From positions 248,001-312,000 of the forward strand of contig JAAVVG010000015.1 of assembly GCA_012976225.1 (NCBI GenBank): a stretch of 64,000 nucleotides of DNA, given 5' to 3'. A program made the translations under genes and the position numbers. Positions 1-56,562 of the stretch are shown piece by piece. The DNA is from Golubevia sp. BC0850. Taxonomy: Eukaryota > Basidiomycota > Exobasidiomycetes > Golubeviales > Golubeviaceae. The notes below the pieces were generated by a model, which was given only the letters and a program-made list of their open reading frames with translations, was not told where the DNA came from and ran no database searches. Within the stretch, counting starts at the first letter, position 1. Each line of letters starts with the position of its first letter.

Positions 1-3000
1 GATTCCATGTTTTCCTCTTCCAGTTCCAACCTTTCAAAGCGCTTGCTCTGGGGAATAGGTTCTTACCCAGCAGTGACAACGATTCCATCTACAATTACTC
101 TTCCCTACCGAACTTGGTGGACTGCAGGTGGTAGAACTGGTTGCTTCACGAACGCTTTAACCCCCTTTGTCCTCATTTTAGCATTAAAACAAGTACCTTT
201 CGCTCTTCTGAGTACAAAATTATTGGGAGGTTACGCTTTTGATAGACTTAGCTTTTTACATAAATGGGGTGGAAGAATCATTTGGATGTTTGCTAGCTTT
301 CATGTTGGAACTTGGAGTTGGCAATTACGGTTGGATACTGCTTTTCAAAGCAGAATCTGGGGTTTCGTTTTCATGTGGCAGAAGTTTAGATGGGGATTTG
401 TGGTGAGTAGCATGAGAGAGAGGGGATGGAGATTGAGAGAGAGACAAAGGTGACAGGAAAGGCTTGGTAGAGTGGGAGAAAAACCATGTAGAGCTTTTCA
501 AAATCCTACTTGAAAGACTCTCACTTGGATTGAGGAAGGAGGATCTCCTTTCTCTCGAACCTCCTCATTGACCTCATTCCTCCCCACCCTTCATGTCCGC
601 CCAGTCCTACATCTTCCTAACTCTTCTAGTAGCCCTCTCAATAGGTCCAGTTCGCAGAGATTACTATGAGATCTTCTATGTCTCTCACATCATTCTAGTA
701 CTCGGATTCATGCTCTCAGCTTGGGCTCATCATCCGCCTTTAGGAGGTTGGATGTATGCTTCATTACTCTACTGGGCTGCGGAAAGGATTACTAGAGCTA
801 TCAAGATTGCCTATGTCAACGGATTAGGTTTCGCAGGGAGGAGACCTAAAGTGGTCATTGAAACGAGGAGTGAAGGACATTCTGTTGGACAACCAAATCG
901 AGGGCATTTCAATCAACAGTCTTACAATTCTTCAGCTTCGAAAGGGGGATACGCAAGATCTCGATCCTCAACTCTTCAAACTCTAAAGAATCCGGATCCT
1001 CATTCTAATTCTTATCGTGCTAACGAATTGGGTTACAATTATCCACCTGGAAGTGGGAACGGAGGGGGTTGGCCTAAAGAAAGTTCTTCAAGCTATTCTC
1101 ATTCAGATAGAAACACTTATGATTCTCACGGCAACACTAGCGGTAGCAGTCAGTTCTCCTCTCCACCTCCAGCTTTCAATTCCCCACTTTCCTTTAATCC
1201 TATGAGACCAGATCCAAATTCCCTCAACCCAAATGAACCTTCAGCTCTCCATCGAGTCAACACTCAATTCTACGAACCTCTGGATGATGTTTTGGAAGGC
1301 TATATGCGGGAAAGAAAGAGTGGAGTCCCCTCTCCTTCCGTCTCTCCTGGACCTCAAGAGATCAACGAGGACGAAAGCATAACGCCGACAACAACCAACC
1401 CTCTTCCTTTCTCTTCTAATGCTCATCCTCTAGCACCCGAGAAGTTCGAATTAGAAGATCGAGGCAGCACTCTTCAGGCTTCCAAACCTACTTTCAATCA
1501 ATCAAGAGGGGTGGCTCCAACTCCTCGAAATGCCTCAAGCGGATCAGAACAAATCCACAGCAGTGCTGACGATTACCGAAATGTAGGAGTCAAGTTCGGA
1601 GGTATCAATCGACCCAACAACACAAGTAGACCTTCCACTGCTGATTCGATGGGCACGATGGCTGGATTAATCCAGAATCGAAGGATTCCTAGACCTGCAA
1701 TGTCAGCCGACGTAGCAGCAGTCATCAGACCTGGATTCGCTTTCGTTCAACTTCTACCTGGAAAGACTTTAAGATTAACTCTCAGAACTCCGAATAGAAT
1801 GAGTTGGCAACCAGGTCAATGGGTCAATTTGAACTTACCTTCAGTGAGATGGTGGGAATCTCATCCTTTCACCATCGCTTCTGCTCATGATGCTGAATTT
1901 CCAACTTCAACTAGATTCGAAGATGACGACGAAGAGACTGGAATTGATTTAGAATCAGGTGAAAAGAAAAAGATGAACAAGGTTAAAGGAGAGGAAAGAA
2001 CTATCGTCTTGTTGTTGAGAGCTAGAAAAGGATTCACCGCCTATCTTTGGGAATTTACTAGGAAGCAGAGATCCTTACAATTGCAAGCTGCTTCGGAAGC
2101 TGGTTATGATCATGCTACTTTACTAGAAGGAATTGCCGGTCCGAACAGTGCCGCTAAAGGAACCAAATCAGTAGCTGGAGTTCATCTTAGAGCGATCGTC
2201 GATGGACCTTATGGATCTTCTACTAGGGTCAAGTGGGGGTCTCATTCGACTGTCATGATCGTCTGTGGTGGTTCCGGAGTCTCCTTCGGGATGTCTTTGC
2301 TAGAGCATCTATGTGCTTGCATAGCTGGAAAAGAGGCTTTTGGTAGATCTGGTAAAGGTGGCAGAGGTTTTGAAACTAAGAAGATCAGATTTGTTTGGAT
2401 GTTGAGAGAATTCAGTCATCTTCAATGGGTCGCTAGTTCAATTAGAAGATGCATCGAGATGGTTCCTCCTGAGCAATTGCAGGTGGATCTTTTCGTCACT
2501 CATTACAACAATCAAATCACGGATCGTCAGAATATCCCTCAAACTCCTCAAACGCTCGCTTTCATCAATCCTCAAGACGGTCTTCTGATGCCGAAAGCTC
2601 CTTTCTCAAACACTCCGGATGGTTACATCTCCGCCAATTCGTACGATGGAGCTTCCACTCCTAACGGGTTCTCTTCTCCGAATCCTGCATCTTCCAAAAA
2701 ACAAAGGTTTACAGATGGAGATGAACAAGAGGAGTATGACCTCAACGTTCATGATCTAACACATTTCGACGGGGAAGATGAATCCGCTCCGACCGAAGCT
2801 GAAGAAGCTATCAATCTGAGAATCAGAAATGAAGGTAAATTGAGAAGAGCTCAGACTAGAAAGCTGACTATGAAGAGGAAGAACAAGAACGGAAATGAAA
2901 AATCTATGAGGGAATTAATGAAAGATGATCAAATTTTGGAAAGTCAAAGAGCTGTTCATGAAGGTGCAATCTCTTTCAATCCTCCACCGATACACAATCC

Positions 3001-3845
3001 TACTCACAATCCGAACTTCAGAAACCCGACTCAGAACTTCAATCAGATGGAAAGAGACATTGGAGATGAATCTACTGGCTATCTCTATGGAGATGCTCAT
3101 CGTAGAGATCCAAGCCTTCCACAAACTCTCCATCGTAAAGGCTCAAATGGAAACCAATACTTTCAGCCTTCTCATGTCGACAGGAGCGAGAGTTCAACTC
3201 CTTCTTCTTCAAGACCTTCATCTCCTGGAAATCCCTTCAATTCCTTACCTTCGACTCCTTTACCTGAATCCATTTTCCAGAGTACCTCTAATCTAGTCTC
3301 ATCAAATGATAGATCTTACGATTCTGCCGATTACAATTCTCAACCGATCCAATTCTCAAATCCTCCAAATTCAAAGTCGAAATCTAGAACTAGATTCCCT
3401 TCTTCTTCATCTTTCAATGCTTTGAAATTTTCCAAAAACATCGATTTGGAAGAAGATCCAGGTGCCAAAGCTCCAATAGATCTAGACGAACAAGAAGATT
3501 TGGATCTCAGAGTCGTGGCTGAATTGGCTAGACCTGGTCATCCTAAATTGGATAGGATTTTGAGAGAGGAAGTCGAGAGATCTCAGGGAAAGATTTTGGT
3601 CGCTAGTTGTGGTCCCGGTTCTTTGGCCACTGTTCTTAAAAGCATAGTAGCTAAACAGGTAAATCCAGAAAGAGTCAGGAAAGGTGATATGAGAGGAATG
3701 ATCAATATCGTCACTGAATCGTACGAGGTGAGTTTAGGGAGATATGAGAGGTGCTCTGGGTGTCTGATTTGATGTCTATGGAGCTTTTCTGACCTGGCAG
3801 CCTCTACTTTCATCTCTCTTTTGTGCCGTCTAGTGGGGTGGTTGA
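1..3845 (+). CDS. Ferric-chelate reductase (FRE/NOX-type flavocytochrome), 5' end cut by window
   Basis: This membrane enzyme should pass electrons from NADPH through FAD and two hemes to extracellular ferric or cupric chelates. Visible exons are 1-402, 605-3727 and 3834-3845, all phase 0. The reading frame is open to base 1, so the true start is probably outside the window. Two pairs of heme-ligand histidines, each about 13-14 residues apart, lie in membrane helices: one in LHKWGGR...SFHVG, the other in YVSHIILV...AWAHH. The FAD motif HPFTIAS, a GPYG turn and the NADPH-binding stretch CGGSGVSFGMS follow. The last exon adds only Trp-Gly-Gly after NIVTESYE. About 1,178 residues are visible, far longer than the usual 600-750. 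The excess is two low-complexity insertions: about 270 residues between membrane and FAD domains and about 320 inside the NADPH domain. Family assignment is firm; substrate is inferred. Confidence 0.88.
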
Positions 3846-17100: not shown

Positions 17101-20100
17101 TTAACCACCGACTGGAGCAAAGTTCCAAACTCTAACATCTCCATCATCACTTCCACTAACGATTTTATCATCTCCCAATGCCACACAAGTAACAGCCCCT
17201 TTATGTCCTACCAAAGTATTTTGACAAAGAGCAGTTTCTCTATCCCAAATCTTAATAGTTCTATCATGAGAAGCCGAAGCGATTCTCAATTTATCAACAT
17301 CCAAAGCCCAAACTCCTTCAACATGACCAAACAAAGTTCTCAAACATCTACCAGTTCTAACGTCCCAAACCTTTAGAGTGTTATCCAATGAACCAGAGAG
17401 TAGAACCGGTCTTTTAGGTGGATGATGATTTGGTTTATTAGAAGGAGTTCTAGATCTATCATTAGAAGAGTTTTCAATTGAACTCGATTTGAGATTGTTA
17501 GAATTGAGATCTTGAACTGAACTTTGATAAAGTCCACCTTCAATATCTGACATTTCAGCATCAATAGGAATAGGTTCAACCAAACCAGCTTCAAATAATC
17601 TTTCTTGAACTCTAGCTAAAACCGGATCAATTTTTCTTCTTCTATGTTGTTCTCTTTCCATTTCTTGTTTACTAAATCGTGAATGTCCAGAAGTAGTCGA
17701 TCCACCTGCAGCAGTGTTATAAAAATGTTCTGGAATTCCAGGAGCAGAAGTATTAGCAGATCTACCACCAGGTACAGCAGAAGGATTTAATCCACAAGAA
17801 GTTTCAGGAGTTGAATGACTTCCATCTGGATAAGTGAAATAACTTGAACCTTCTCCAGATCTAGGAGCATGACTTGAAGATCTATCTAAATCTTCTCTTA
17901 ATCTTTCCATTCTTCTTCTATCGGCTGCATCTGCTCCAGGTCCTCCAGCAGCTCCAGCAGCTAATTGTCTAACCGCTTCTTCATCTAACATTAAAAGTTT
18001 GATCGATTGAACTTGTCCTACGTGCCCGTCATAGACTAGAAGACATTCCATAAGTCCTAAATCCCAAAGACGAATCGTTCCATCGTCGGAAGCAGAGAAG
18101 AGGAAAGTTCCAGCAGCGTATTCTCCAGTTTCTAGACATTCGAGTCCTGAAGAAGTCCAATCAGTTGAAGGAGATTTCTCCTTTTCCTTTCCCTTTTCTT
18201 TCGATTTAGGACCAGTCCAGAGTTGAACAGCGTTGACCCAATCTTCATGACCTCTAAGAGTCACGCATTTCCCAGTTCTGAAATTCCAAACCTTGATCTC
18301 TGCGTCCGCACTTCCACTTGCTAGAGTGTCGTCATTGAAGTCTAGACAGACGATTCCTTCGGTGTGACCTTCCAAAGTTCTAATGAGATCTCCAGTTCTC
18401 CAATTCCAAATCTTGAGAGTCCTATCCATACTTCCAGTGATGAGTTTGGCTTCGTCGAATCTTAGACATCTAACTCCTCTAGTATGACCTCTCAAGACTC
18501 TGAGTTCTTCTCCAGTCTCCAGATTCCAAACTCTAGCTGTCCTATCATAAGATCCGGTAATCACCACAGGGAAGGAAGGATGAGCTAAAGAATCAGAATA
18601 TTGAAGACACATGATTCCTTCCTTATGACCCGACAGGGTTCTGACAGTATGTCTTCCACTGCGCCAATTCCTTTCAATAGCCAACCTTTCACAGTAAACC
18701 GTTTTCCAAGGTCTAGTCAAAGTTTGAGGAGCTGGAGCAGTGACAGCAGCTGCTTTTTCGATTTGCTGTTGATTAGAAAAGGAAGCTGAAGTTTCGGATG
18801 AAGTTCTAGTTGAAGAATTGCAATTCCTCTTGGTAGGTGGACCTTCTTCTTCATCTTCTTCTGCTACTAGTTTTGGACTCGTAGCTCTTGATGAACTTGC
18901 AGTTTTCGAGTGTCTTTCCAAAGCAGCAGCATTTGCAGCGGCAGTGATTGACCTCTTGATATTTCCAGACCCATTTTCAGAAGCGTTTGAACTACCTTCT
19001 CCACTTGTTGAACTTTCGGGAGAATTGGGTCTTGAACGAATAGGTCTAGCTCCATGGCCTGGATCCAGCGTCAATTGTCTGCTCTCGGCAGTTCCCTTCT
19101 TACTTGCAGGTCCCTTAACTCTTCTCCTTCTCTCACTTAAAAGCGGTAAACCCCAACCACATTTCTCACATTTCCTCTCTATATGTTGTTCACACATATT
19201 TCTCCATAAAACATCATCATCTGCTAATTTCTTCCAACTTAAAGAAACTTGAGCTGCTCTACCCAAAGAAATTGCATCTAAATGTCCTAAGGATCTGAGA
19301 GCCACTTCCTTTGGGAACAAGGAGAATGGATCTATTCTGATCGCCAAGGCTAATTCGGAGGATAGAAGTGAGAGTTGTGAGAAACAACACATTGTTAAAA
19401 GACCTTGAAGAATTAGAGCTCGACGGGAATGAGAAGAAGAGGAGAAGAGTGACCAGACTGTGTTGACCGCTGTTTGATCTGAGAGTGGTAGGGATTCGAT
19501 GGTCTGGTAGAGAAGAGGAGAGAGTAAAATAAATTAGAGAAGAAGAGATGATTTACAAGAGGGCAAAACCTTAATTCCGAGAAGAGGGAGAAGAGCATCG
19601 GACTGAGCACCATCCTCTTCGTATCCTCTCCCACCGCTTGGAAACTTCGAAATCTAATGCATTGAACCGATCCATCGTACCACCTGCATCTTGGCCGACC
19701 CTCTCCTGCCATGAATATCAGAGCCTGAACATCTCGCCACTGAACTCACCTTCTGTAGCCTAGCGGTGACACCTTCGTCAGCCATCCTCTGATGTCTTAC
19801 ACATAGTTTCCTAGCATCGGGCGGAATCAAAGGAGTCGTAGAAGCAGCACTGGCACTAGCACTGACACTTGTATTTGCAGGTTGAGAAGAAGGACCTGCC
19901 AAAGCAGCCAGTAGATGGAGGTTGTTTTGAGCTTGACCGCCTTCGGACGTAGTTGGTGGAAGGGTTTGAGATAAACTGAGGTTTGAATTACTATTGATTG
20001 ATTCTGAAGATTGAATTGGATTAAAGTTGGTAAGAGTGGAAGATGAAGGTGAAGGTAATTCATCGTCCCTTCCTCTCAAACCTGGACCATGACCTGAAGC

Positions 20101-40739: not shown

Positions 40740-43700
40740 CTAGGACGAAGAAGTTCTATGACGCCAGTTTCTTTGACGAAGAGCGAGAAGTTCCTGATTG
40801 ACGGAAATTAGGAGAAATTAAGGGAAAGTGATTTCCAGGAATGGGGGCAAGTGGGGATCAGCAAAAGAGGATCAGGACTATGGGGACGCCCATCACTCGA
40901 AGTTGCAGGAGAGACGATACTCACATTGATCCATTCTTTCGCATCGACAATAATATCTTCGTGCAGCAGCAGCTCAGAGAGCCGTTGTGTACAGGAATCC
41001 AAAGTGTGTCTGGCTTCCGAGTGAGTTGGATTTGGAACAGTGGAGATCTGGGATGCAGTTTTGGGAGATGATTGTTCGACGGGCTTCTCCGAAGAATAGA
41101 TTGGAAGAGAGGGAGTAGAAGATCTGCAGGATTGGGAAGAGCTCAACGACTTCATGATCGAGTCTGAACCGTCCTTGACCGAGGAGAGAGATGGATTGCG
41201 AGGCGAAGAAGGGGCCGAAGCAGTTCTGGCCCATTGGTCGTGACGAGAAGTGAGAAGAGGAGAATGTCTAGCAGCGGAAGGGCTGTGGTTGTGATGGATC
41301 CAGTGAGAGGTTGGAGCTGAATCTGATCTGACCAATTGGCTTCGAACGTTCATGACGAGTGCACTTCCACTGGCTTGGATCCCTAGCCCAGCACGTTCAC
41401 TTGAGAGACGAGGTGGAGTGGCGGGAGAGTAGTCCATCAAGCTGCGACTCGAGAGGGGAGAGCTGGAGCTGGCAGTGATAGTTCTATTCTTCTCCTGAGC
41501 ATCCGAGCTGAGCCCGCTCGAGTCTTTGTCTGCTTGAGTCTCGAGATTGAGTCCGACGGTGATGAGAAGGGCGCAACCAGCTTCGAGCTCGAAAGCTGAA
41601 GGAACTTCTGGATGAACCGTATCGAAGAAGAGACGATGCAACCAGGCCTGGAGGTCTCCTAGAGGGAAGAGTCCAAGGCAATGAAGCTTCGAATGAATGA
41701 AAATGAATAGGAGGCGGAGAGGATGTTAGTTTTTGGAGTCGTCACCGTCACCATTCCCTCAGTCTTCCATCGAAGTCGAACTCTCCAACTCACCTCTCCC
41801 ACGAATCTGACAATGTTCACATGAGCGAAGGTATCTTTGAGATCACCTTTGGCTGCTTTCTTTCTCTCTCTCCTTCTGTATTCTTCCTCTGAAATGACTC
41901 CAGTGACCGCCATCTTGAGAACTTTCTCTCTAGCTGCATCTTGAGCCGCTTTGGCTGCAGTCAAAGCCGCCCACCTCTTCCTGTTCCCCTTTCTTTGAGG
42001 TGGGACGTTCAAAGAAGAGTTTCTTTCACGAGCTTCTTCACCACGTTCGAAGTATCCAGAGAGGTGGGTGTGAAGTAGAGACATCAGAAGCACTGAAGCG
42101 TCTAGATCTTTTGATTTCTTCTCCTTTGGAGAGGCTTCAGTTAAAGTTCTGTCCACCTCTTCTTCTTCTGATACCGTGTCTTCCTCGAGGTCCTTCGGAG
42201 AAGAGAGTGAAGACTTCATGAAAGAGATCAGCTTGCTCAACATTCCAGGGATTTCCCAAGGAGATCTCTCGTCTTGCAGCAGTGCGAAGATTCCAGTGGC
42301 GACATGGTCCAAGATCTTCTCCAGCATTTTCTCGTGCTCTTCTTGAAGCCATTCCTTTGGCAAGAGGTACTTGATCTTCTCCGATCCAACACCAGCCCCC
42401 CCTCTACGTCCCTTTCCGATAGCAGAGTCGTAAGGCAGTAAAGGCTCGAACTTTTGACGAGATAGAGTTGGAATGTTTGGAGCACCAGACTTTCCGGCGA
42501 TGATGTCGTCTAAGAGAGTGACTAGCTTTCTCGAAGCTAGGTTGATTTTCTGCTGCCTACTTCCCATCCTAAGGAAGTCTGATAGAAGACTGTCTATTTG
42601 AATGGCAGCGATGTTGAATCCTTTGGTGTCGGCGTCGATCCTAGACTCCAAAACCGCTACCGGCATTTGAGCGATTTGCGACTGGATCTTGCTCTCCAAG
42701 GACTCGTCTCCTAGTACCGGAGTATCGAAAGATCCTAGTGAGGAGGGAGAAGATTCCAAAGAGTTCCCACCATTGAGAAGCGAAGCTGGCGAGGCGAAAG
42801 CATCTTCACTGAAACCTCTGATGCTTGGAGAATCCATCTTCGAAGCCTCGTCCAGAGATAGGAAAGCGGACCCGATTCCTTCGAGACCAGAACTCTTCTC
42901 TCTTACGGTATTGGGAGAATCTAAGAGGACCGATTTGAAGGAAGCAAAGGAGGAGCGTTCTTCACCATCACTGATGCCGTGTAGACTCGCATAGAGACGA
43001 CGAGCTGCAGATGGTAGGATGGCGGCTGGTGGAGGAGTGATGATGATGCTGGGAACCTCCGATGGGGATCCTTTGGACTCTGAGAGAGCAGGAGTAGGAG
43101 GAGAACCTGTTGCAGAGTGAAAGGCGGGGAAGAGGGAAGTACGATGTTTAGAGAAGTACGGCTTCAAACATCGAATGATCCTTTGATCCACTTACTTTTA
43201 AGCTCTCTGTTCTTAATGTCAAGCAGAGTTTGAGCGAAGCTAGAGGTATACTTGGGAGTAGTGATGACTCTTTCCTTAGCTCTTGCCGGCTGAATCTTCT
43301 GACCTTCCTTCAAAGCCAAAGACAACGAAGCTCTCGAGTGCTTGGTCATGGGAACCTTGACCACCTCCTTATCTTCCTTCTCGTCTTCTTCTTCAATCAA
43401 AGATCCCGATTGCACGTCTTCTGGTTGAGCAGGAGAAGGTAACGCTGAAGGCAAGAGGGACGAAACGTTGACTCTACGACGTGAATTCAACAGATTCTTC
43501 GACCCACTGATCTCCGGACCAGAGCTGCCTACAGAGTTGAAGTAGGAAGAAATACCACTGAACTTTCCTAAGCTCTTCAATGGATGACTTGGAGGTGGGA
43601 AGCCCATTCCTAGACCAATTCTACCATCTTCGAACGACTTGGAAAGGCTGGAGGTTGGCTTGTTTCCGTCGTCGAAAGCAGGTCCTAGAAGAGTCTCCTT

Positions 43701-45683
43701 TGAGGTGGGTCCGAGTGATCTCTTGGAAGAGGTCGAAGCACTAGGATTGAAACCAGAAGATTGAAGGGTTCCATTGAACAATCCAGGTTGGGCGTTGTGA
43801 GAAGTCTTTGAGAGAAAGGCTGCTTCAGGTTGAGAAAGAGAAGCAGTCAAGCTTGAGATGATCTGATTCTTTGAAATCTTGACCTTAGATAGAGAAGAAG
43901 AGGACGAAGACGAAGGAGGGTTGGAAAGATTGGAAGGTGCTTGCGAACGAGTACGAGTTCTGGCACCTTTTGGAATTCTGGGAGAAGTTGGAGATTTGAT
44001 TGCCGATTTGCGCTTGGTCTTGCTAGCATAGTGATGAACCGTACTTCCCTTGGAAGAAATTTTGGAGACCATTGGATCTACTGAATCTCTCTCTGAACCA
44101 TCTTGTGAGCCAGAAGACTTTCCACCAGAAGTGACGGTAGAACTTGAGTTTCCGACCAGCTCTTCTCTGACGGAGCTGCCTGCTGCTGAAGCGCTGGCTG
44201 GGACCATTCCCATAGCTTGACCGAGACGAGAGAAGTTGATGTTTGGCATTCTTTTGGAAATGGAGCTGCGACCATCGATCTGCGGTTGAGATTGGACAGA
44301 GACCGGATCGACCGTGAAGGACTTGCTTCTTGAATGAATGCCCTTGAGAGTAGATCTACTAGTAAGACTCTGAGAGCGAGGAACGATTGGTGGTCCCATC
44401 AGCTCCCTGTCCTGAAGATCCAGTGAAGTGGAACCGTTCAGACTTCTGTTAGAGACTCTGTCCATGTCCTTGGAAGTCGCCACCGGATTTGCACCACCGA
44501 GATCCAATCCCAAGCAGTTGGTCTGTTGAGACGAAGACTTCCTTTCTACCTCTTGACTTGAAAGTTCCATCAGCTCAAAGACTGGCGTTGGAGGAGGAGT
44601 GTCATCCGAGGATTGGTGTTGAGCTGGTGTTCCTTCTGCCCCTAGAAGTTTCCCATACTTGTTTGGTGAAGAGGGGGTAGGAGGCGTAGCTGGTCGACTC
44701 GAGTGAGACGAAGCTGGATCCAACAGGTAGGATGGAATAGAGGTAGGACTATCGCCATTAGGTGGATAAGACTTGGTAGGCTTGATGAGAGCGGAAGGTT
44801 GACGACGGTGCTTTGAAGCGACGTGGGCGGGAGTTTTAGAGGTCGGCTTGACTGAAAGGGCTCCAGCTCTTCCGGAACCTTTGGTAGCAGAGCTTCTAGA
44901 TCCTGAAAGATTGAGACCATCTGGAATTGAGTTGAAGGTGTTGGATCCAAAGTCGATCGAGAGGGTAGTTGCTTGGAGGACGGTGGAGGACATCTCATCA
45001 TCACTGCTGCTACCCTTCAAGACCTTCTCCATCAACTCGTCATCGTCAAAGTCTTCCACCTCAACTTCCTCTTGAAAGGGGACGATACATCCTTTGAAGG
45101 CTCCGGTGTCTCCTTGGCCACCTTCCCTTTCAGGATCCACCACACCTCCTACATAGTACTCAGGTAGGTTCTCTCCATTCCTGCTGCTTCTTTCCCCCTT
45201 TCTTCTGTCATTTGTGTTGAACACCTTCTCTTCATCATCAGACTCTCCATTCCAACCAGAGAAACCTTCTTGCTGTACTCTTGGACTAGAAGGCATCTTG
45301 CTCCTTTGAGCTAGGCTCTTACGTGAAGGAGTTAAAGGAGTGGTGGGATGGAAATTTGACTCGAACGAGTTCTGATAGTTCTTGGAGGTAGGAGTAGAAG
45401 ATTGACGAGATGAGTAGGAGGGATTGGTGGGAAAGGTGTTGTGTGTTGCTTCTGTGAAAAAGTCTCCACTGTTGTTGTTTTCATCCTCTTGCAGAAAAGA
45501 GAATGGTCGATTTGACCTCTTGGTGATGGGGGAGGAGAAAGGAGCTTTTGAATTCAGATTTCTATTTGATGAACTCCTGGATTGATTAGAGGAAAGGCGT
45601 TGGCCAGAAAGAGTTGAAGGTTGGGTTTTTGCTACCCTTCCGAAAGTGGAAGGTGGAGTTTGGAGTGATTCACCCTGGACCAT
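40740..45683 (-). CDS. Large eIF4G-like protein with split MIF4G domain
   Basis: Four exons, 45683-43196, 43106-41794, 41686-40925 and 40793-40740, join in phase and give 1,538 residues. The first 1,000 residues are disordered and Ser-rich. The rest follows the order of an eIF4G-type MIF4G domain. SVLLMSLLHTHLSGYFERG is followed by a basic Ala/Lys helix, then NIVRFVGELHCLGLFP, CALLITVGLNLET and finally LLALRQRNWRHR. In eIF4G these correspond to the FERG, VRFIGELFKL, LLTTVG and DVIELRxxxW segments. About 150 disordered residues are inserted between the last two. MIF4G domains bind eIF4A-type helicases or RNA. The divergence suggests a paralogue or specialised factor, not the canonical eIF4G; that is inference. 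The start is the first ATG in frame. Confidence 0.78.
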
Positions 45684-46448
45684 GCTCTGTGAGTAGGAGG
45701 AGCAAATGGAAGAAGTGAACACTTGATTTCGATTGAAGTCTGATTTTTGAATAAGTTGATAAGTAGCAAGAGAAGAAATGAGATACCGCAGAAGAGAGGA
45801 GATGAGGATTGAAGGTGGTTGCTAAGGATGGGACGGGAGAGGGCAAGGAATTGAAAGATTGTGAGAAGCTCGCCTTCTTGATAGTCTGGAGACTATTAGA
45901 GAGGAAGAGCTTGATTCTTGAAGGAAATGAAGGTGGAAAGGGTGAGTTGAAGAAGTAGGAAGGAGGAGTGGTGCAAGAAGAAGAGAAGAGAGAAACTTCA
46001 ATGCCAATCAGTATCAGTTTCCAAGGCAGCACAGATGAAGTTTTCTACTAAATTCTTAACTTACAAAATAAACAAGGAGGCGATCCTCAAAGACCCGCTC
46101 CAAGTCCATTTCCAAAGCCAATGTCTCGGTTTCAGAAATCGTGAGAGGACGCCTCCTCAAGACGCGTAGAGTTATCGCCACCTATCCCTTGCCCTCCTCT
46201 TTTCTTTCTCCATTCTTTGAGATCCAATCAAACCCTAAAGAGGCTCGGAGACTTCGATTGCAACGAGCGAGATTGCATCATGCCCGCTGAGCCCGTTGTT
46301 TCTGTGTAGACCTGTATCCTCATCTCTCTCTACTTCAATCACATCTTGAACTATACCTTTCCCCCTCTGCTTAATCATACTCAAGTCTCTTTCAAACGAG
46401 TCGAGAAGACATAGAAAGAGAGAGAGAGGAAATCAACTTCACCAAGCG
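45684..46448. promoter_or_regulatory. Divergent promoter between MIF4G and MHYT genes
   Basis: These 765 bases separate two start codons pointing away from each other. The MHYT side is CT-rich and has no clear TATA box. No coding exon is seen. Confidence 0.5.
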
Positions 46449-49400
46449 ATGTTTGGGTTCATCCTCTTTCGGCGGAGAAGAATCGCAACCATCTTACTAC
46501 TTTCATCTTTCGTCCTATTCATCACAGCTCAAACTCAAGAACTCATAGATGAACTTCCTTCAAGTACAAATTCAATATCAGATTCAGAAACAGAGAGCAC
46601 ATCAAGCTGGCTAGACTTTCAAGACGAACGAGCTTTGAAGAGGTTGCTTCTCTGTCCACCTCTACCTCCAGACACCTCCCTCACTCTCCCAGCACCGATC
46701 CCTCTCCGATCCACTTTCTCTCCTGAGAGAGTCTGTCTTTCCTTTCTTGTCTCATTCATAGGCTCAATAGCATGCTTAGAGCTTCTCATCAAAAGAGCTC
46801 CCAAGGTCCTGAAGGAGGAAAAAGAGACAGAGGCTGAGGGAGAAAAGGAAGCAGCAAGATCGAATAGGATTCACTGGTGGAATCGGATAGGAAGATGGGA
46901 TAGTAGCTGGCTCTGGTTATTGGCAGCTGCTTTCGCTTTCGGTGGTGGGACTACTTGGGCGATGCACTTCATCAGTAAGTATCAAGAGGGAGAGGAGAGA
47001 GCAAAGTCGGGAGCGGATGAGGATGGCAGTCCAAGTCCCAGAACCAACGTAGACGGTCTTCCTATTTTGATGATGGGTCAATGAGAATGCTCATTCCATC
47101 TCCTTTGGGTGTCGCAGTACGATGAGCTGACCTATGCCCTTCCTCCATCTCTCCAGGCATCAATGCTCTCTTCCTTCATTTCCCATCGCCTCTTCCGATC
47201 AACCTCTTCCCTATCATCTTTCTGAACGAGAGACCAATCCCTCAAGGACTCGAAGCCTGGTCGAACTCTTCTACTTCGATGGAATCCATGATGACTCAAG
47301 TCATAGAAGGAGATGGTGGTCGAGTGTTGGAATGGAAGGACGCTGCTTCGATGAGCTCCAAGGACATGGTCTTAATCATGGCTGCTACCCTTCAAGAACA
47401 TCAAGTCAGGATCATCGACCACCCAAGTGCTCTAGCCTTAGTAGATCTCAGAGAAGACGATGGCGGGACCATGCCAGTCATCTATCAAGGGGCCTATTCC
47501 ACTCTCGGTTTGATCTGCGCTATCGTGGGAGCCATCGTAGCCTTCGCCTTGTTGGACTTCTCACACCCCAACCCGAGGCCGTCTAGGGCGAATCCACCAG
47601 ACGATACAGGTACCAGCTGGATCGGAAGGATCCTTAGGAGTACTGGAGGACGCAAGAGAAGGAAGAGAACCCGGGAAAATGGACGAGAAAGAACGGCTTC
47701 GCCAGAGAAGAGGGAGAAGAGTCCGACTCCTGAGGTCGAAAAGGATCCTCAAGAACTCTTCGCAGCCTTTGATCTCTCGAAGCGACGATCGAAAGATGGT
47801 GCTGGAAAGGATAGAAGCATGACGGCAGCCCTCTCTTCTGCCCCTCCAACTTTCTTCCAACCCCCTCGTACCACTCTAGGCTACTTCGACGTCGCGTACA
47901 GCGTGACTGGAACCACCAAGCTCAATCCACAAGACCGTCTCGCGCCTTCCGATCGAGGGAATCTTTCTCCACTGGAGTCATTGGGACGCAGCCAGTCTCG
48001 TCGACTTGGTCAAAGCTCTTCGACTTTAGTCCCCAGCACTCCTTCTTCTCCAACCGAGATAGCTCCTCAAAAGGAAGATCAATCATCTATCAGGGATGAC
48101 TTGCTCAAAACGGCAGAGTACGAGAGGTATCGAAGAGGCAGCGAGACGACCCAGGTCTCTGCATTCGAAAAGGAGGACAAGGGGATGGTCAAGGAAGCCG
48201 CCGATTCCCTATACTTGGTCAACTCTCTATCTCGAGGATTGGTCTCCGATGAAGCTTCCATCTACAATACTCGCTTCGCCGGCTCCCGAAATCAACTAGT
48301 CACAAGCCCAGGAGCGATCGAGATGGCAGTCGGTGGCATGCATGCCAACCTTTTTGCTCCGCCTTCGCGTCAGCGTTCCTTCGCAAACTCAAGCTTCCGG
48401 GATCCTACTTATCAAGAATTTGTCTCAAGAGCGGCATCTACTTCCTCCTTTGCCTCTGCGGGGACAACGCAGGCAGGTTTGAAGAGATCCTCTTTGAGAC
48501 TCGCTGTGGACGATGACGCTCTCGACGCTCAGTCTCCCATCTCACCACCTTCGATCACCTGTCCAGAAGATGAGAGAAGGCTTTCGGATGAGATCACGCT
48601 GTCCGAAACGGACTATGATAGCGTCGAGTCGATAGAGGATCGAGACAGAACCTCAAGGCGGCGCAGGCTTGCAAGGCAAGCTCTTTCCGCTGCCATCGCC
48701 GGAGGCGGTATCTCAGCAATGCGTGAGTTATAGTCACGACGACCAGTCAAGTTTCTGAACATCGTAGCCTCAATATGTAGTCACTAACCTCTATGGTCTC
48801 CTCCCTCTCTTTCTGCAGACTACGCTTCTCAGTCAGCAACTCTATTCGTGCACTATCACTACGTCGCTGGATACGCAGTAGCAGGAGCGCTCTCCTCCGT
48901 AATCTTGGTCTTTCTCTCGTTCTTCGTACTATTCGATCTCTTGAGACCTCGATTACTCAACTTCTTCTGGGCACGACTTCCACTGGCTTTCCTTCTGAGC
49001 CTTGCTTCAGTGCTGATGCACTACACCGTAGTTATTGGAACTCGCTACTACATCACAACAATTCAACTGGCGGATCTTCTTCTTAACCCAGGTCAATGGA
49101 GGTCGGGTCGAACCTCTCGAAAGTCTCTGATCGGATTGGTAGCCAGCGTTGCAATCTCAATCTGCATCACTCTGGCCGTGGTGGCACTGCTATCTCAGAG
49201 GAGAATCGCTGAGAAAAAGGCGAGAAACTCTCAACAGAGAATCCTTCTAGCTGTCTTCCTACTAGACAAGAACGGTGACGTCTTAGCGGACGCTGACGGT
49301 TCTATTCCAATGGTGGAGATAGCAGATGACCTTCCGTCTTCCTTGGACCTGTTCATGTCGCCGAGACTCCCTCAATTCTCTCCTTCTGCAGTTTCAGGAA

Positions 49401-52135
49401 AGGAGCCGACGAAACGACCAGCCAAAAGGAGAGTGAACGCTGTCTTCAGACGCCTCTTCGCCCTACTGTCGAACGGAGGCCTCCCTTCCCCAGAGCAGGG
49501 AACTGCAGCTGATCTTCACGAGCTAGGAACAGATCAAGCCATTTTCTCCAAATGTCTTCGCAAGACTTGGGATTGGAAGCAACCCTCTGAAAGCAACAAG
49601 CCCACAAGTGAATCTAGAGCCTCTAAGGAGAGAGAGAATCGTCAGCTTTCAAAGCTTCGCTTCTCTGAGAAAGCTACAGAGCCAAACTTCGGTATCGAAT
49701 CTTCCAAAGTACGAGTTACCTCTACCAACTCTCCGGATCAGAAGAAGCCGAACGCAGCTCACAGGCGACTGCGGAAGAATCTTGAAGACTTCTACCTACC
49801 TATGGACACCCCGAATCGGAAGGTCTCACCGGCTCGTGAAGTGGAAGAGTTAACTAGGTATCAGAGCAAACGGGAAACAGGAGAGGAGAAATTCGAAAGA
49901 CTTTTCGACCGAGCTGCTTCTGAACTGTCTCGACTTCTTCTCGGTAGCGAGGACTCGGAAGCCAAAGCCAGGATGGGAGTCCTGTACGATCGAATTGTTC
50001 CTGTGGGATACGTCAAGGCTGGAGGTTCAGGAGCTCTAGCGAGAGGCCAAATGCTCGTCATCGCCAAGAGGATCAGCACGATGGCAGAGAGGGAAAGTCT
50101 GCTGCGATCTGGTGCGGGAGCAAATGGCTTCGCCTTCGTGGAGGCAGCTACAGTGGCTAAACGAGCCATTGGTTCTAAAGGTCTCGGTCTTAAGGCTGAT
50201 GAAACTGGCCCTCTAGTCTCTGATCTCGTGGCATTCGCTAGCCAGCGGACCTGTCTAGCAGATCAAGTCACGAGCGGAGTAGTCTACGTCTCACTGGTGG
50301 CTGTCCAGAGTCTTTTGGTCGGAGGAATTCAAGTCGCTGTGGATCACAATCGTCGACATTCCTTGCCGATGGTGGAAATCGGAGATCTAACCAGACCGGA
50401 TGGAAGTGAATCGATGCAGTCACTCGGCAGCTTAGCCCAGCTCAATTCTTCCCTCCAAAGTCTCTCTGGACACACTCTCTTCTCTCTGATCGAGCTGAAC
50501 GAGTCTCTTCTGGAAAGACGTGCCTTAGTCTCCGATCGGCGCGGAAGTGTATCTTCAATCTCTATGGCCAAGTGGATTCCTAGACTGCTTCCAAGCCAAA
50601 AGGACCAAATGGAAACGACGGAATCTTACTCACTGACACAAGAAAGACTCATCAACGCTCTAGTTCACAATCTTATAGCCTTTCTGGATGCTCTTCTTCC
50701 AGTCGAAACCGTCTCTTACCTCCTGCCTCGACTCACTTTGATTCCTGAGGTGATCGCTCTTCTTCCGCCCAGCCACACTTCCTCCAACTCCAAGGCTCGT
50801 TCGAGGAACTCCGCAGGATCTCAACAGCAGCCAGGGATCTCTAGGGATTCTGGATTTGGTCAAGCTTACTCCATCAACTTCAAGGTAGTGGTAGCTGCTG
50901 ATACGGACCTGGCTGGATTGACTTGGATTCCCTACCGTCTCTTCGTCGTTCACAATGAATGCAGGTCCAAAGCTCCTGCTTCTACTCCCAATCGCTACTC
51001 CAGCTTGATGGAAGGAAGGAGAAGGTCAAGGGCTTACAGTGTCGATGGATTCAAGATTCGAAGCAACAGTGGTAATCTAATACCTCGTACCTCGGACGTG
51101 ACCAATCAGCCCAACGTGACGACGAGATCGAGAGCTTCAACTTTGATGTACAGTCCTTCCGCTTCTTTCACGTCCCTCAAGGATCAAGTTCAATCTGTCA
51201 AGAACAAGGTTCGAATGACTACTAGGGGTCAAAGGACGAAGCGACATGGGAGATCTTCATCTGAACCCGATGCGAAGTCGCTCTATGGATGCGAAGTTCC
51301 TCTTTCCCATCCCTCGCAACACGCAATGTCGACCAAGACTTCTGCTACGCCGCATCAACACTCTGCCTCCAACTCCAGTGACTTCAAAGAAGGCGGCCTC
51401 GGGAGTGGTCTGAGACGCAGAAGTGTCGTGCCTCTCTCACCTGTGCTTTCACAGCATGAGGATGCTGAAGGAGATGAATCTGAGACTCCTACCATAGACA
51501 ACTTGATGCTTGGGTTTCAGGAAGAGACTAGAAAGACGGAATCTACATCCAACGTTCACTTCGGAAGCGGATTCTCCCAGCTGCCCATTAGATCGACAAC
51601 AACTTCCAGCTCGAATCCAGGGATTCTATTTCCTTCCGCCTCTCTTTTCTCCTTCACTCAACCCTTCAATGTCAACTCCAAATTCGATAGACCTCGCAAT
51701 GTGGAAGATTCAATCGCTCCAGATTTCATTCCAACATCTGAATCTTCAATCTCTTCAAGAGGTAACCACTTTACTCCTTCAACCTCTAGACAAAGTCGGA
51801 TTCAAACTGAAATCTCAATCCCAATGCAATTCCCGAATTCTGTCAACGTTCCTCAAGTAGTTCTTCAAACTTCTACTTCTACAACTTCCTCATCTAGATT
51901 CAGTACGGGAGCTTCCATTTCTGAACAAAGAAGACAATCTGCACCTTCTCTCATTCAAAGTTCAACTCCAATCCCTCTACCCTCCTCAAATAGTAACCTT
52001 TCAACCTTTGATCCCCCTTACGATCCAGATTGGATCTCGAAACTTTTGAAAAAACAGTTGACAGAAGAAGATGAAGCTTTCAAAGTTGGACAGCAAAAGG
52101 AAATCGAGATGGACTTGAACTTGTTAGTGGATTGA
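46449..52135 (+). CDS. Giant MHYT-domain membrane protein
   Basis: MHYT domains are membrane modules first defined in bacterial signalling proteins and proposed to sense O2, CO or NO through a bound metal. Exons 46449-46974, 47157-48722 and 48819-52135 give 1,802 residues. Three motif copies are visible: WAMHFIS (residues 171-176), SAMHYAS (695-701) and VLMHYTV (762-768). Each ends a hydrophobic helix, with further helices such as VCLSFLVSFIGSIACLELL, LICAIVGAIVAFALL and VAGALSSVILVFLSFFVLF. Normally the motifs lie about 60-70 residues apart. Here about 520 residues, mostly disordered, lie between the first and second. After the membrane part come about 1,000 cytoplasmic residues: a partly ordered region (for example QMLVIAKRISTMAERESLL, SGVVYVSLVAVQSLLVGG) and a Ser-rich tail. 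No GGDEF, EAL or kinase output domain is visible. Confidence 0.86.
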
Positions 52136-52582
52136 ACTCCTTTTTTACTTTTATCCTCCTTTTACCGCCCTCCTCTTCTTAGCTGCTCGATTGGATCATC
52201 TTCTCTCTAACGTCAATCTTTCTGTGCTTCTATCTCTTTCGGTCACTTTGTATTACATTCCTTTTTTGTTCGAGAACTTCGTTTGTCATATCACTTTCTT
52301 TCATCTCACAAGTAGCCTTTAGTGACAAAGGGACGTTGCTTCGGTATCCGGTTTCTTAGACTGCGAGCGATCGTTCTCTGTGGATTCCTTTGCATCCAAG
52401 CATCAAGCATCGATCTGGACCCACCCCAACCATCCTCCTTTAAGAGTCGCTTGGATCTTGAGTGACAATAAACATCAACGATCAACTTGAAGCTCTCATT
52501 ATCATCAAGCAGATATCAACTCAATCCGATCTCTAGGGTATCGGTGCTAGCTCATCCGGACCTCTCTCATCTACCATCTACC
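52136..52582. other. Intergenic region upstream of PEX1
   Basis: These 447 pyrimidine-rich bases hold the 3' end of the MHYT gene and the promoter of PEX1. Nothing further was found. Confidence 0.5.
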
Positions 52583-55500
52583 ATGTCAAAATCGTCTAGA
52601 TGCACTCTATCATACATTTCATTGGATTCAACTCTCAATTCTTCTTTGGTTCATCTTCCAATTTCACTCTACGCTCCTTTAACTCAAAGATCAGTTCCAC
52701 CTCAAAACATAGTAGTAGAATTAGAGTTAGTCTTACCTCCTTCCTCAAATGGAGGTCTCCATGATTCAGTGACAGATTCAGAACCAGAATCAGAATCAGA
52801 AGAAGGAATTCAATCCGATCGAAAGTACTACGTTGGTTGGTCAGGAATGTCCTCAACTCCTCTAAGCAACTCTTCAATCCAGTCTCAATCTCAATCTTCT
52901 ACTTCTTCCTCTCCATCTCTTCAAACCGTTTTGACAATCGCTCCATCTTTAGCTTCATTACTTAGACCTTCATCTCCAACCATTTCATTGGAATCATGTC
53001 TCGTTAAGATCACTTTACTCAGATCTCCGCCTCTTCCTACTGCTCAAAAGATAGAGGTCACCCCTCTTACTCCCGATGATTGGGAGATCCTTAGTTTGCA
53101 TGCTGAACAGATTGAAGCCAATATGCTGGGTCAGGTCAGAGCTGCTAGGAAGGGAATGAAGATCATCGTTTCTACTGGAAGCAATGGAAGGACTAGGTGT
53201 ACTTTCAGAGTAGGTGAGTTGTTGAGTAGCTGGTCGCTCTATGTTTTGAGTGGACGAGGCTGTGCTGGATTGATTTGAATACAGATTGAAAGATTGTATG
53301 CGACTGAGTCGAAAGACCAGAAGTGGTGTGAGTGAGCAGTTCTGACTCCTTTCCCTCTCCTTCCCACCTCCTCAGACTCAACCGATCCTCCTACAGCTTC
53401 ATCTAGTCATTCTCCAGATTCATCATCTCTAGCTAGAGCAGTGCGGTTATCAACAGACACGGAAGTCATCATAGCCCCCAAACTACGATCCCTTCCAAAT
53501 CCACAAGACACAGAATCTCATTCTCTCAACTCAATCAATGGAACGAAACCTCCAGCTTCTTCTCAAGAACAACAGCAAATGATAGAAATCCAGTCCAGGT
53601 TGAAGAGAATGCTTTGGAGAGTTCTACCTCTAGAGTGGGAGCCGTGTAACCTTCAACTCAGAGATGGAAATCAACTTCCTTCCGGTGTAGTTCTACCGCC
53701 TTCTAGGAGAGAGGAAGGAAACGATCCTTATGGGTTTCTGATGAAGGCATTTCCAACTGGTAGATTCTCGGTCACTAAAGTTCCTTGTCCTGCTACTTCT
53801 GGATCTAGTTTCTCATCAACAAGTCAAAGTAGAAAGAGTTTTAAGAGAGATGATTTGGATGATGAGGAAAAAGACTCAAAAGGAGACTTGGATCAAGAAA
53901 CTGAACAGGGTGAAGAAAATGGGGAAGATGAAGAAGAACAGCTGGGAGTTGGAAATCAAAGCTCTCTTCCACGAAGACCTACTGCTTCTGCTCAATTCTC
54001 GGCCTCTCTTTCTCTCGTTCGGGATGGCGAAAATGAATCACACACCGCTGGAAAGGAAGTTCTCTGGCCGGAGAGGCATGTTTGGTTGGATCTCAAATTA
54101 CGGAAAGCTTTGGGAATAGGTCCAGGAGAACTAGTCAGATTCACAAGTCCACCTCCTTTCTCTTCTCAACAAGTTTCGGAACCAGAGTCAAATTCAAAGT
54201 CCAAAGTTTCTTCCAAGTCGAAATCAAAAGGGCCTTCTTTGGCTGGAGTGGATTCACTTCTAGAATGTTCAACCAGCCTGATCCTCGACACCTTTAGAGC
54301 TAGAACTCTTCTAGACGTCGATTCAGCTGAATCTCCAAGGAATGGGAATCAAGGTGGAAAAGGATCTTCAATTCGAAGCGGATCTTCTGGAATGCTTCTA
54401 GTCGGAGGTCCTGGATCTGGGAAAACCTCAGTTTGTGATTCGATCTCTTTCAGATTAACCGATTCGACTTTATCCAAGAAGGTTGGATCTACCGGATCGA
54501 GTCTTCCTCCTATCAAGACCATCAAAATCTCTTGTTCCCCATTCTCTGAAGAACGATTACCAATCTTGAGGAATAGAATCTCTTCTTGGTTATTGGAGTG
54601 TTCTTGGAATTCTCCAACTCTTTTGATTCTCGAGGATTTAGATAGGTTATGTCCTGCTGAACAAGAACATTCGGACTCGACTAGATCCAAACAGATTTCT
54701 GAAAATCTCATCTCAGCTCTTAAAGAATGTATCGAGAAGGATGACGTGTTTGTGGTTATCACTTGTCAGAATGAAAATTCTTTACATGAGAGGATTAGAA
54801 ATTCAAAGGTTATCAATAGGATTATGAAATTGAAACCTCCTAGTAAGGAAGGTAGAAAAGAGATTTTGGAATTAGTGGTGAAGGAGAAATGTGGCTGGAA
54901 GAAGGAAGATGGACAGAAAGAGAGTGGATCAAGAAAGATGAAAGGAAATGGAATTCAACCTAGAGACTTGAATTATGTTACTCTGGCGGGTTTGACGGAA
55001 GGGTATCTACCGAGGGATTTGAAGGATCTTACTGACAGAGCAGTCCATCAGGCAGTGATGAGAAGTGCTGGAGACAGAGCTAACGGAAACCGAGAGGACG
55101 AGCAGGACGAAGATGAGAAGGAAAGCGAGAATGAAGCCGACTCGGTGAGTGCCAAATCTTTTTTTTCTCATTGGGTTCTGTGAATAAAATTTCACTAACT
55201 CCTTTCTACTCTTGTTCGTCCTCAGCCTCTCTACCTACTTCCTGCCGACTTCGTCTCTGCTCAAGAAGGATTCACTCCACTCTCTCTTCGAGACATCTCT
55301 TTGGCTGAATCTACAGTAGCATGGTCTGACATTGGAGGTCTCCAATCCACTCGAAGAGTGTTGAGAGAGACTCTGGAATGGCCTACAAAGTACTCGGCTA
55401 TCTTCCAGAACTGCCCTCTGAGGCTGAGAAGTGGACTGCTGCTCTATGGTTACCCTGGTTGTGGAAAGACGTTACTGGCTAGTGCTGTGGCTAAAGAATG

Positions 55501-56562
55501 CGGTTTGAACTTTATCAGTGTCAAAGGTCCAGAGATTCTGAACAAGTACATCGGAGCGAGTGAGAAGTCGGTGAGTACTTGAAGCGCCTTCCTCTTCTTC
55601 CAACCAATTCAGTTGGGGCTGATCTCCATGCTATCCTTCCTCCCAAATAGGTCCGTGATCTTTTCGATCGAGCTCAAGCTGCAAAACCTTGCGTTCTATT
55701 CTTCGACGAATTCGATTCCATCGCTCCAAAGCGTGGTCACGATTCTACCGGAGTCACAGATAGAGTCGTCAATCAACTCTTAACTCAGATGGATGGAGCT
55801 GAAGGTTTAGATGGAGTCTATGTTTTAGCAGCAACTTCCAGACCGGATCTAATCGATGCTGCTCTACTCAGACCTGGTAGATTGGACAAGTCTCTACTCT
55901 GTGACATGCCGAACTTGGAAGACAGGTTGGATATAATGAAGGCTGTAGCCCCCAAGATCAATCTAGGAAAAGAAGTCGACTTGAAGAAATGGGCGGAGAA
56001 GACTGAGGGGTTCAGTGGAGCAGATCTTCAAGCTCTACTTTACAACGCTAATCTAGAAACTATCCATCAAAGCATTGAACAAGTCAAGAAGAATGAAGAT
56101 GAGAACTCAAAGAAAGATAGCGCAAATTCAAAGGAGAAGAAAACTCAATTCATCAAACTCGGAGGTGGAAGAAAATCTGAAAAGGTGGATCGGAAAGGAA
56201 AGGGTAAAGCTAAGGACAATTCCTCAGGTCTCGTCTCTTCTAACTCGACCGCTATGAGTGGAGCTGAAAAACAAGCTTTACAGAGGAAATTGGATCTAAT
56301 GCTCGAGAACTCTTCGACGGCAAGTAACTCTCAGAACAGTAATCTCAAAGCAGCTTCAGATCTGGCTAGTTCGAAACCTGATACTTTTGTCACGGATGCT
56401 CACATCGAAAATTCGTTACTGTCCACTAGACCTTCAGTCCCTGCTGAGGAAGTCGTTAGGCTCAGAAAGATTTATAGAGAGTTCGCTGGAGATGAGAGGG
56501 ACGGTGGTTTCCCAAATGGAGAAGGAAGCAAGGATGTTGGCGCTAGAGAGACGCTCATGTAA
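52583..56562 (+). CDS. PEX1: Peroxisomal AAA+ ATPase Pex1
   Basis: Pex1 pairs with Pex6 to extract the ubiquitinated import receptor Pex5 from the peroxisome membrane. Exons 52583-53213, 53376-55144, 55226-55570 and 55651-56562 give 1,218 residues. The N-terminal double-psi-barrel region includes [10 protein letters not shown] and [20 protein letters not shown], typical of Pex1. D1 has Walker [10 protein letters not shown] and Walker [12 protein letters not shown]2 has Walker [16 protein letters not shown], Walker [11 protein letters not shown] and the second region of homology [17 protein letters not shown]. All D2 catalytic residues are present. Disordered acidic insertions lie before D1 and after D2. 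The start is the first ATG in frame; upstream codons begin with TTG. Confidence 0.96.

Follow-up and report, generated by a model that had tools for sequence, protein, structure and literature searches.

Does a fungal gene whose three Met-His-Tyr/Phe motifs are spaced 525 and 67 residues apart encode one MHYT sensor, and if so, what could such a sensor detect? The gene lies on the plus strand of a 64,000-nucleotide stretch of Golubevia sp. BC0850 (contig JAAVVG010000015.1, positions 248,001 to 312,000), here called the window, from an assembly of 25.8 Mb in 64 contigs (GCA_012976225.1). We consider it fairly likely that its product is a divergent fungal MHYT membrane receptor, in which one seven-helix sensor with two loops around the third transmembrane helix (TM3; the others are numbered likewise) would combine copper/gas or redox sensing with cytoplasmic signalling.

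To arrive at the protein, a splice model was derived from the sequence alone, without transcripts; it joins three exons into an uninterrupted frame of 1,802 residues ending at 52135 (Table 1). In the coding frame exon 2 is free of stops and exon 3 has its terminal stop alone, whereas the alternative frames contain 20 and 12 stops in exon 2 and 46 and 50 in exon 3. The second motif is present in the spliced product only, as its His codon is cut by intron 2 (ATG C/AC TAC, with the slash at the intron). The spliced protein carries MHF172, MHY697 and MHY764, the three motifs to which a first-pass annotation of this DNA had drawn attention; from the composition of a protein of this length, 0.03 MH[YFW] triplets would be predicted.

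The same annotation had called the product an MHYT protein, and profile searches bear this out. Pfam MHYT (PF03707) scores 25.2 bits against a cut-off of 21, in three stretches (residues 1-924 of the spliced protein). A second MHYT profile was made from eight sequences, namely seven bacterial domains, one of them taken as CoxC (its first 232 residues being the first row), and a canonical MHYT paralogue from the same genome (contig C55, about 229790-233430; PF03707 65.5 bits). Residues 87-201, which span TM1, TM2 and motif 1, match this profile over columns 14-78 (expectation value, E, 4e-7), and residues 679-831, which span TM4 to TM7 with motifs 2 and 3, match it over columns 115-211 (E 2e-8), so that the TM1-motif 1 and TM4-motif 3 halves each fall on the correct columns and the family order is kept. 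The real score of either half was reached by none of its 60 shuffles, and a control segment from the disordered loop gave no more than a background score. The transmembrane part also aligns with that of the paralogue at a shuffle-based z of 14. Of 12 columns that are invariant among 45 bacterial MHYT domains, the protein retains nine, among them all Met and His positions of the three motifs, and the motif 1 region retains family positions W55, M57, H58, F59 and A64 (W-A-M172-H173-F174). As the halves match the profile separately and in order while their shuffles fail, the sequence is most likely that of a single MHYT domain rather than of two genes.

The structure of the gene points the same way. 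The coding sequence of TM4 and motif 2 is interrupted by intron 2, with its GTGAGT donor, CTAAC branch-like site and CAG acceptor, which makes it unlikely that TM1-TM3 and TM4-TM7 belong to separate proteins; exon 2 is open right to the intron 2 donor, and either half would be only part of an MHYT domain. Moreover, in a gene confined to exon 3 translation could start no earlier than the ATG of motif 3 (residue 764), so that its product would be without TM4, motif 2 and TM5. We therefore consider it highly improbable that two genes were fused or that the gene model is wrong, even though the halves lie far apart in a model made without a transcript, retention of intron 1 leads to a stop after 211 residues, and the locus was not reported when the whole genome was searched in six frames with PF03707.

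What, then, separates the first motif from the second? The first-pass annotation had described one insertion of about 520 mostly disordered residues. The length stands, as shown by the 525-residue interval, but TM3 lies near residue 300 within it, and the interval hence consists of two loops flanking a helix rather than one insertion. Judging from family topology and flanking charges, we infer that the two loops lie on opposite faces of the membrane. The disorder holds for the inner loop, which has a Uversky score of -0.06, 61% disorder-promoting residues, 58 Lys plus Arg, 51 Asp plus Glu and 29% Ser, Thr or Pro; a Pfam scan of this loop gives no match. The outer loop, in contrast, is not scored as disordered (Uversky +0.20). 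A single N-glycosylation sequon lies in it, at residue 212, along with a hydrophobic stretch at about residue 189 that we did not assign as a helix; a count by eye gives it seven Met and three His. A match to NF033791 in the outer loop was rejected at 13.5 bits against a cut-off of 250. Neutral loop expansions are common in fungal proteins, and the two loops may either be of this kind or add inputs and outputs to the sensor.

Bacterial MHYT motifs are indeed spaced in the sixties, as had been stated. The spacing of motifs 1 and 2 is 61-64 residues in 85 of 87 bacterial loci, the other two (L024 and L084) having no three-motif frame, and that of motifs 2 and 3 is 61-77, or 61-69 but for one locus at 77. 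These loci comprise 80 genome loci, the best 80 of 588 confirmed stretches, and seven plasmid loci that we picked among the matches listed (40 of the 121 plasmid records in which places match the MHYT region of the paralogue). Because the set was picked by similarity to a canonical query, proteins with long inserts were selected against and the spacing is biased towards the canonical one. In the paralogue the spacings are 69 and 65. Since the window protein keeps the motif order and the profile match, we treat a spacing of 60-70 as usual for the family rather than defining. A bacterial structure model made with AlphaFold (L011 with 44 other loci, which are 45 of the 80 genome loci, by our choice; predicted local distance difference test, pLDDT, 90.9; predicted template modelling score, pTM, 0.89) has helices at 7-29, 36-64, 75-97, 102-126, 138-161, 167-190 and 210-231, of which numbers 2, 4 and 6 contain the motifs (columns 57-59, 120-122 and 184-186, respectively). 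In this model the TM3-TM4 loop, the site corresponding to the inner insert, is four residues long (98-101).

For the fungal protein, helices were called by Kyte-Doolittle hydropathy with a threshold of 1.3, except for TM2 and TM4, which were placed by their profile matches, and the helix ends used for charge counts were set by us. Within 15 residues, Lys plus Arg are more numerous on the presumed inner side than on the outer side for all seven helices, for example TM2 (4 versus 0), TM4 (7 versus 0) and TM5 (3 versus 0). In the bacterial family the motifs are near the periplasmic side, according to the CoxC paper (PMC11347149). A seven-helix topology with the motifs near the outer face is supported, but not proved, by these predictions.

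Beyond TM7 the protein continues into a long cytoplasmic part, for which the paralogue offers the closest comparison. The paralogue likewise has a three-motif MHYT domain followed by a long cytoplasmic part without a Pfam match, and the two proteins have in common an ungapped juxtamembrane motif; a second region further along is weakly colinear between them (Table 1). Colinear controls taken from the inner loop and the tail gave z of about 1, and the C-terminal tail has no significant similarity to the cytoplasmic module of the paralogue (z 1.0). These comparisons argue, with moderate confidence, for a cytoplasmic module common to both genes that has since diverged. The paralogue differs in having no long inter-motif loops, a higher PF03707 score and an intron at motif 1. 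That intron sits precisely at the junction of the motif's Met codon with its His codon, whereas intron 2 of the window gene lies inside the motif 2 His codon, so that the two paralogues have introns at different MHYT motifs.

As the first-pass annotation had remarked, there is no classic output domain: none reached the cut-off in Pfam over the cytoplasmic part or in NCBIfam over exon 3, and no histidine-kinase, GGDEF-EAL or LytTR family was found in the cytoplasmic stretches (Pfam at E<=10; NCBIfam at E<=1 for exon 3). Two candidates were rejected, PF17331 (GFD1) at the TM7 exit, with 16.5 against 23.4 bits, and PF01312, with 10.2 against 24.4 bits. A scan of viral contigs for relatives of the module returned 31 pattern stretches and no relative, and a single-sequence structure model of residues 1040-1425 (mean pLDDT 35.6, pTM 0.24) was uninformative on the fold.

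Several observations weigh against a single seven-helix receptor with a conserved cytoplasmic module. TM3 alone has no significant profile match (E 0.06, a score reached by 2 of 60 shuffles), and both alignment methods place it on the TM1 columns; its identity consequently rests on hydropathy and order. Only five of the seven proposed helices exceed a hydropathy of 1.3, with TM2 and TM4 below, and stretches that we did not call as helices exceed it, at about residue 189 (1.57), at 1194 (1.92) and at 1317-1337 (1.4-1.7), so that hydropathy alone cannot settle the topology. The charge margins are small for TM3 and TM6 (both 2 inner versus 1 outer), and TM7 has 6 inner versus 4 outer. Among the 12 invariant positions, G124 is replaced by S and M189 by V, and S81 could not be placed in the alignment. 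In the cytoplasmic part, local alignment of the later region to the paralogue is non-significant (z 2.6, one shuffle higher), and colinear alignments in three tests are weak (z 3.1-4.0, a score attained in each test by 1 shuffle out of 300). A search of the fungal genome with residues 836-1346 returned only the query itself, which places the paralogue below the search threshold, and the homology of this later region is weak and depends on one paralogue.

Could the domain be a relic, in which helices and motifs persist, the ligand has been lost, and the membrane part now anchors a disordered loop and tail that scaffold other proteins? The MHYT score of 25.2 bits, far below the 65.5 of the paralogue, would fit such a history, as would the replacement of G124 and M189 and the 918 of 1,802 residues that make up the inner loop, the linker at 881-1050 and the tail, three regions whose folding scores are low or close to zero (Uversky -0.06, -0.19 and 0.01, respectively). 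The paralogue, however, which also keeps 9 of the 12 invariant columns, is itself without G124 and M189, and the three Met-His pairs of the window protein have been kept with their aromatic partners amid wide divergence, as expected if they were still needed. We therefore regard a relic as unlikely.

Given a domain that retains its motifs, the best guide to its function is CoxC, whose MHYT domain makes a repressor respond to carbon monoxide (CO), reversibly with O2, and whose requirement for copper was established by experiment (PMC11347149). Locus L004 of our bacterial set, labelled 'MHYT domain-containing protein' in its record, is taken to be CoxC of Afipia carboxidovorans OM5 on the basis of the plasmid that carries it, a length of 402 residues and the places of its motifs. 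Like CoxC, the window protein has an MHYT sensor with three motifs, and both of its halves match the profile that contains CoxC; the CoxC motifs, by contrast, are at 57, 118 and 180 (61 and 62 apart), and its output is a LytTR DNA-binding domain. The three kept Met-His pairs, together with this analogy, make a copper-dependent sensor of gas or redox state the most likely function, and we suggest that the protein is probably a copper-dependent receptor for a diatomic gas or for redox state. In such a receptor the seven helices would form one MHYT sensor, with one motif close to the outer end of each of TM2, TM4 and TM6, and the two long loops around TM3 would be additions that leave the family order of the helical core intact. 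If CoxC is a guide, copper would be bound by the motifs, which at the outer membrane face would either take up a diatomic gas or register redox state, and the resulting change could be relayed through TM7 to the cytoplasmic module, which appears to have a diverged counterpart in the paralogue.

The dependence of the CO response of CoxC on copper (PMC11347149) and the seven Met and three His of the outer loop could also be read as signs of an MHYT-type domain for copper handling (uptake, storage or sensing of copper levels) rather than gas sensing. We find this quite improbable, as no copper-transport domain reaches the cut-off in Pfam, and the protein has a large cytoplasmic part akin to the paralogue's, which points to signalling. 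A more elaborate version of the receptor, which we put forward only tentatively and consider doubtful, is that the gene represents a separate fungal subfamily, split from the paralogue by duplication, in which TM3 would sit between two long loops, the outer one a domain that contributes another input or a site for copper loading, the inner one regulated and providing another output from mid-sensor, with two exits for the signal as a result.

How novel is this arrangement? It had been proposed as an undescribed fungal architecture, and for the loop-split form this holds to the extent that no loop-split MHYT protein was found in the open-access literature searched. Fungal MHYT proteins as such are already in print, and the cytoplasmic region is not unique to the window gene, as that of the paralogue is partly related to it. 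Aspergillus fumigatus AFUA_5G11310, a further fungal MHYT protein, is given as an 'MHYT domain signaling protein' in the appendix of a review on receptors, as a table entry (PMC3576715). An MHYT histidine kinase of Taphrina, described as having very few others then reported from Pezizomycotina (PMC4007546), is likewise a fungal protein with an MHYT domain; its output is a histidine kinase, whereas Pfam recognises none in the window protein. Several fungi are also mentioned in the CoxC paper (PMC11347149).

Table 1 Features of the MHYT gene in the window (positions are those of the window; TM, transmembrane helix)
Feature	Position	Strand	Description
Exon 1	46449..46974	+	Residues 1-175 and 1 base of codon 176; open frame and splice site; N-terminal hydrophobic stretch (possible signal peptide), TM1, TM2, motif 1
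Intron 1	46975..47156	+	GTAAGT donor at 46975, CAG acceptor before 47157; links MHFI to SINAL
Exon 2	47157..48722	+	Remainder of codon 176 to residue 697 and 1 base of codon 698; outer loop, TM3, inner loop, start of TM4
Intron 2	48723..48818	+	GTGAGT donor at 48723, CTAAC branch-like site, CAG acceptor; phase 1, inside motif 2 His codon
Exon 3	48819..52135	+	Remainder of codon 698 through residue 1802, then the stop codon; end of TM4, TM5-TM7, cytoplasmic module, tail
TM1	46728..46796	+	Residues about 94-116; hydropathy 2.25, profile match
TM2, ending in motif 1 (M172-H173-F174)	46899..46970	+	Profile match; hydropathy below 1.3
Outer loop (TM2-TM3 insert)	47159..47488	+	Residues about 177-286, ~110 residues; predicted outside the cell
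TM3	47489..47563	+	Residues about 287-311; centre 301, hydropathy 2.53; profile match non-significant
Inner loop (TM3-TM4 insert)	47564..48676	+	Residues about 312-682, ~371 residues; predicted cytoplasmic
TM4 with motif 2 (M697-H698-Y699)	48677..48844	+	Residues about 683-706; placed via profile, not hydropathy
TM5	48860..48940	+	Residues about 712-738; hydropathy 2.55, profile match
TM6 with motif 3 (M764-H765-Y766)	48968..49042	+	Residues about 748-772; hydropathy and profile match
TM7	49127..49195	+	Residues about 801-823; hydropathy 2.78
Juxtamembrane cytoplasmic motif, common to the paralogue	49217..49333	+	Residues 831-869; 39 residues ungapped, z 12, 200 shuffles
Second cytoplasmic region, weakly colinear with the paralogue	50114..50506	+	Residues 1130-1260; semi-global z 4.0, reached by 1/300 shuffles
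C-terminal tail	51002..52132	+	Residues 1426-1802; 35% Ser, Thr or Pro

Other genes could be recognised in the window. Downstream of the MHYT gene, on the plus strand at 52487-56562, lies a PEX-1 N-terminal domain with AAA domains, likely PEX1 in several exons. On the minus strand at 43164-45722 there is an 852-residue Ser-rich frame with no Pfam match at E<=0.001, which, if real, would be transcribed in the direction leading away from the MHYT gene. Further away are a ferric-reductase-like frame (593-3772, plus strand), in which the flavin adenine dinucleotide and nicotinamide adenine dinucleotide binding domains are above the cut-off and the membrane domain is below it (24.4 versus 28 bits), and an F-box and WD40 repeat protein (17101-19392, minus strand), presumably of the SCF ubiquitin ligase subunit kind.

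The fungal MHYT literature that we found amounts to the one table entry and the note on a histidine kinase, and the window gene adds a caution: unspliced searches may overlook such members, as the PF03707 search of this genome did. If copper and gas are still bound, the MHYT core would tolerate large insertions around TM3, and the protein would be a candidate fungal membrane sensor for CO, nitric oxide (NO) or O2, one that is testable since CoxC has shown the principle.

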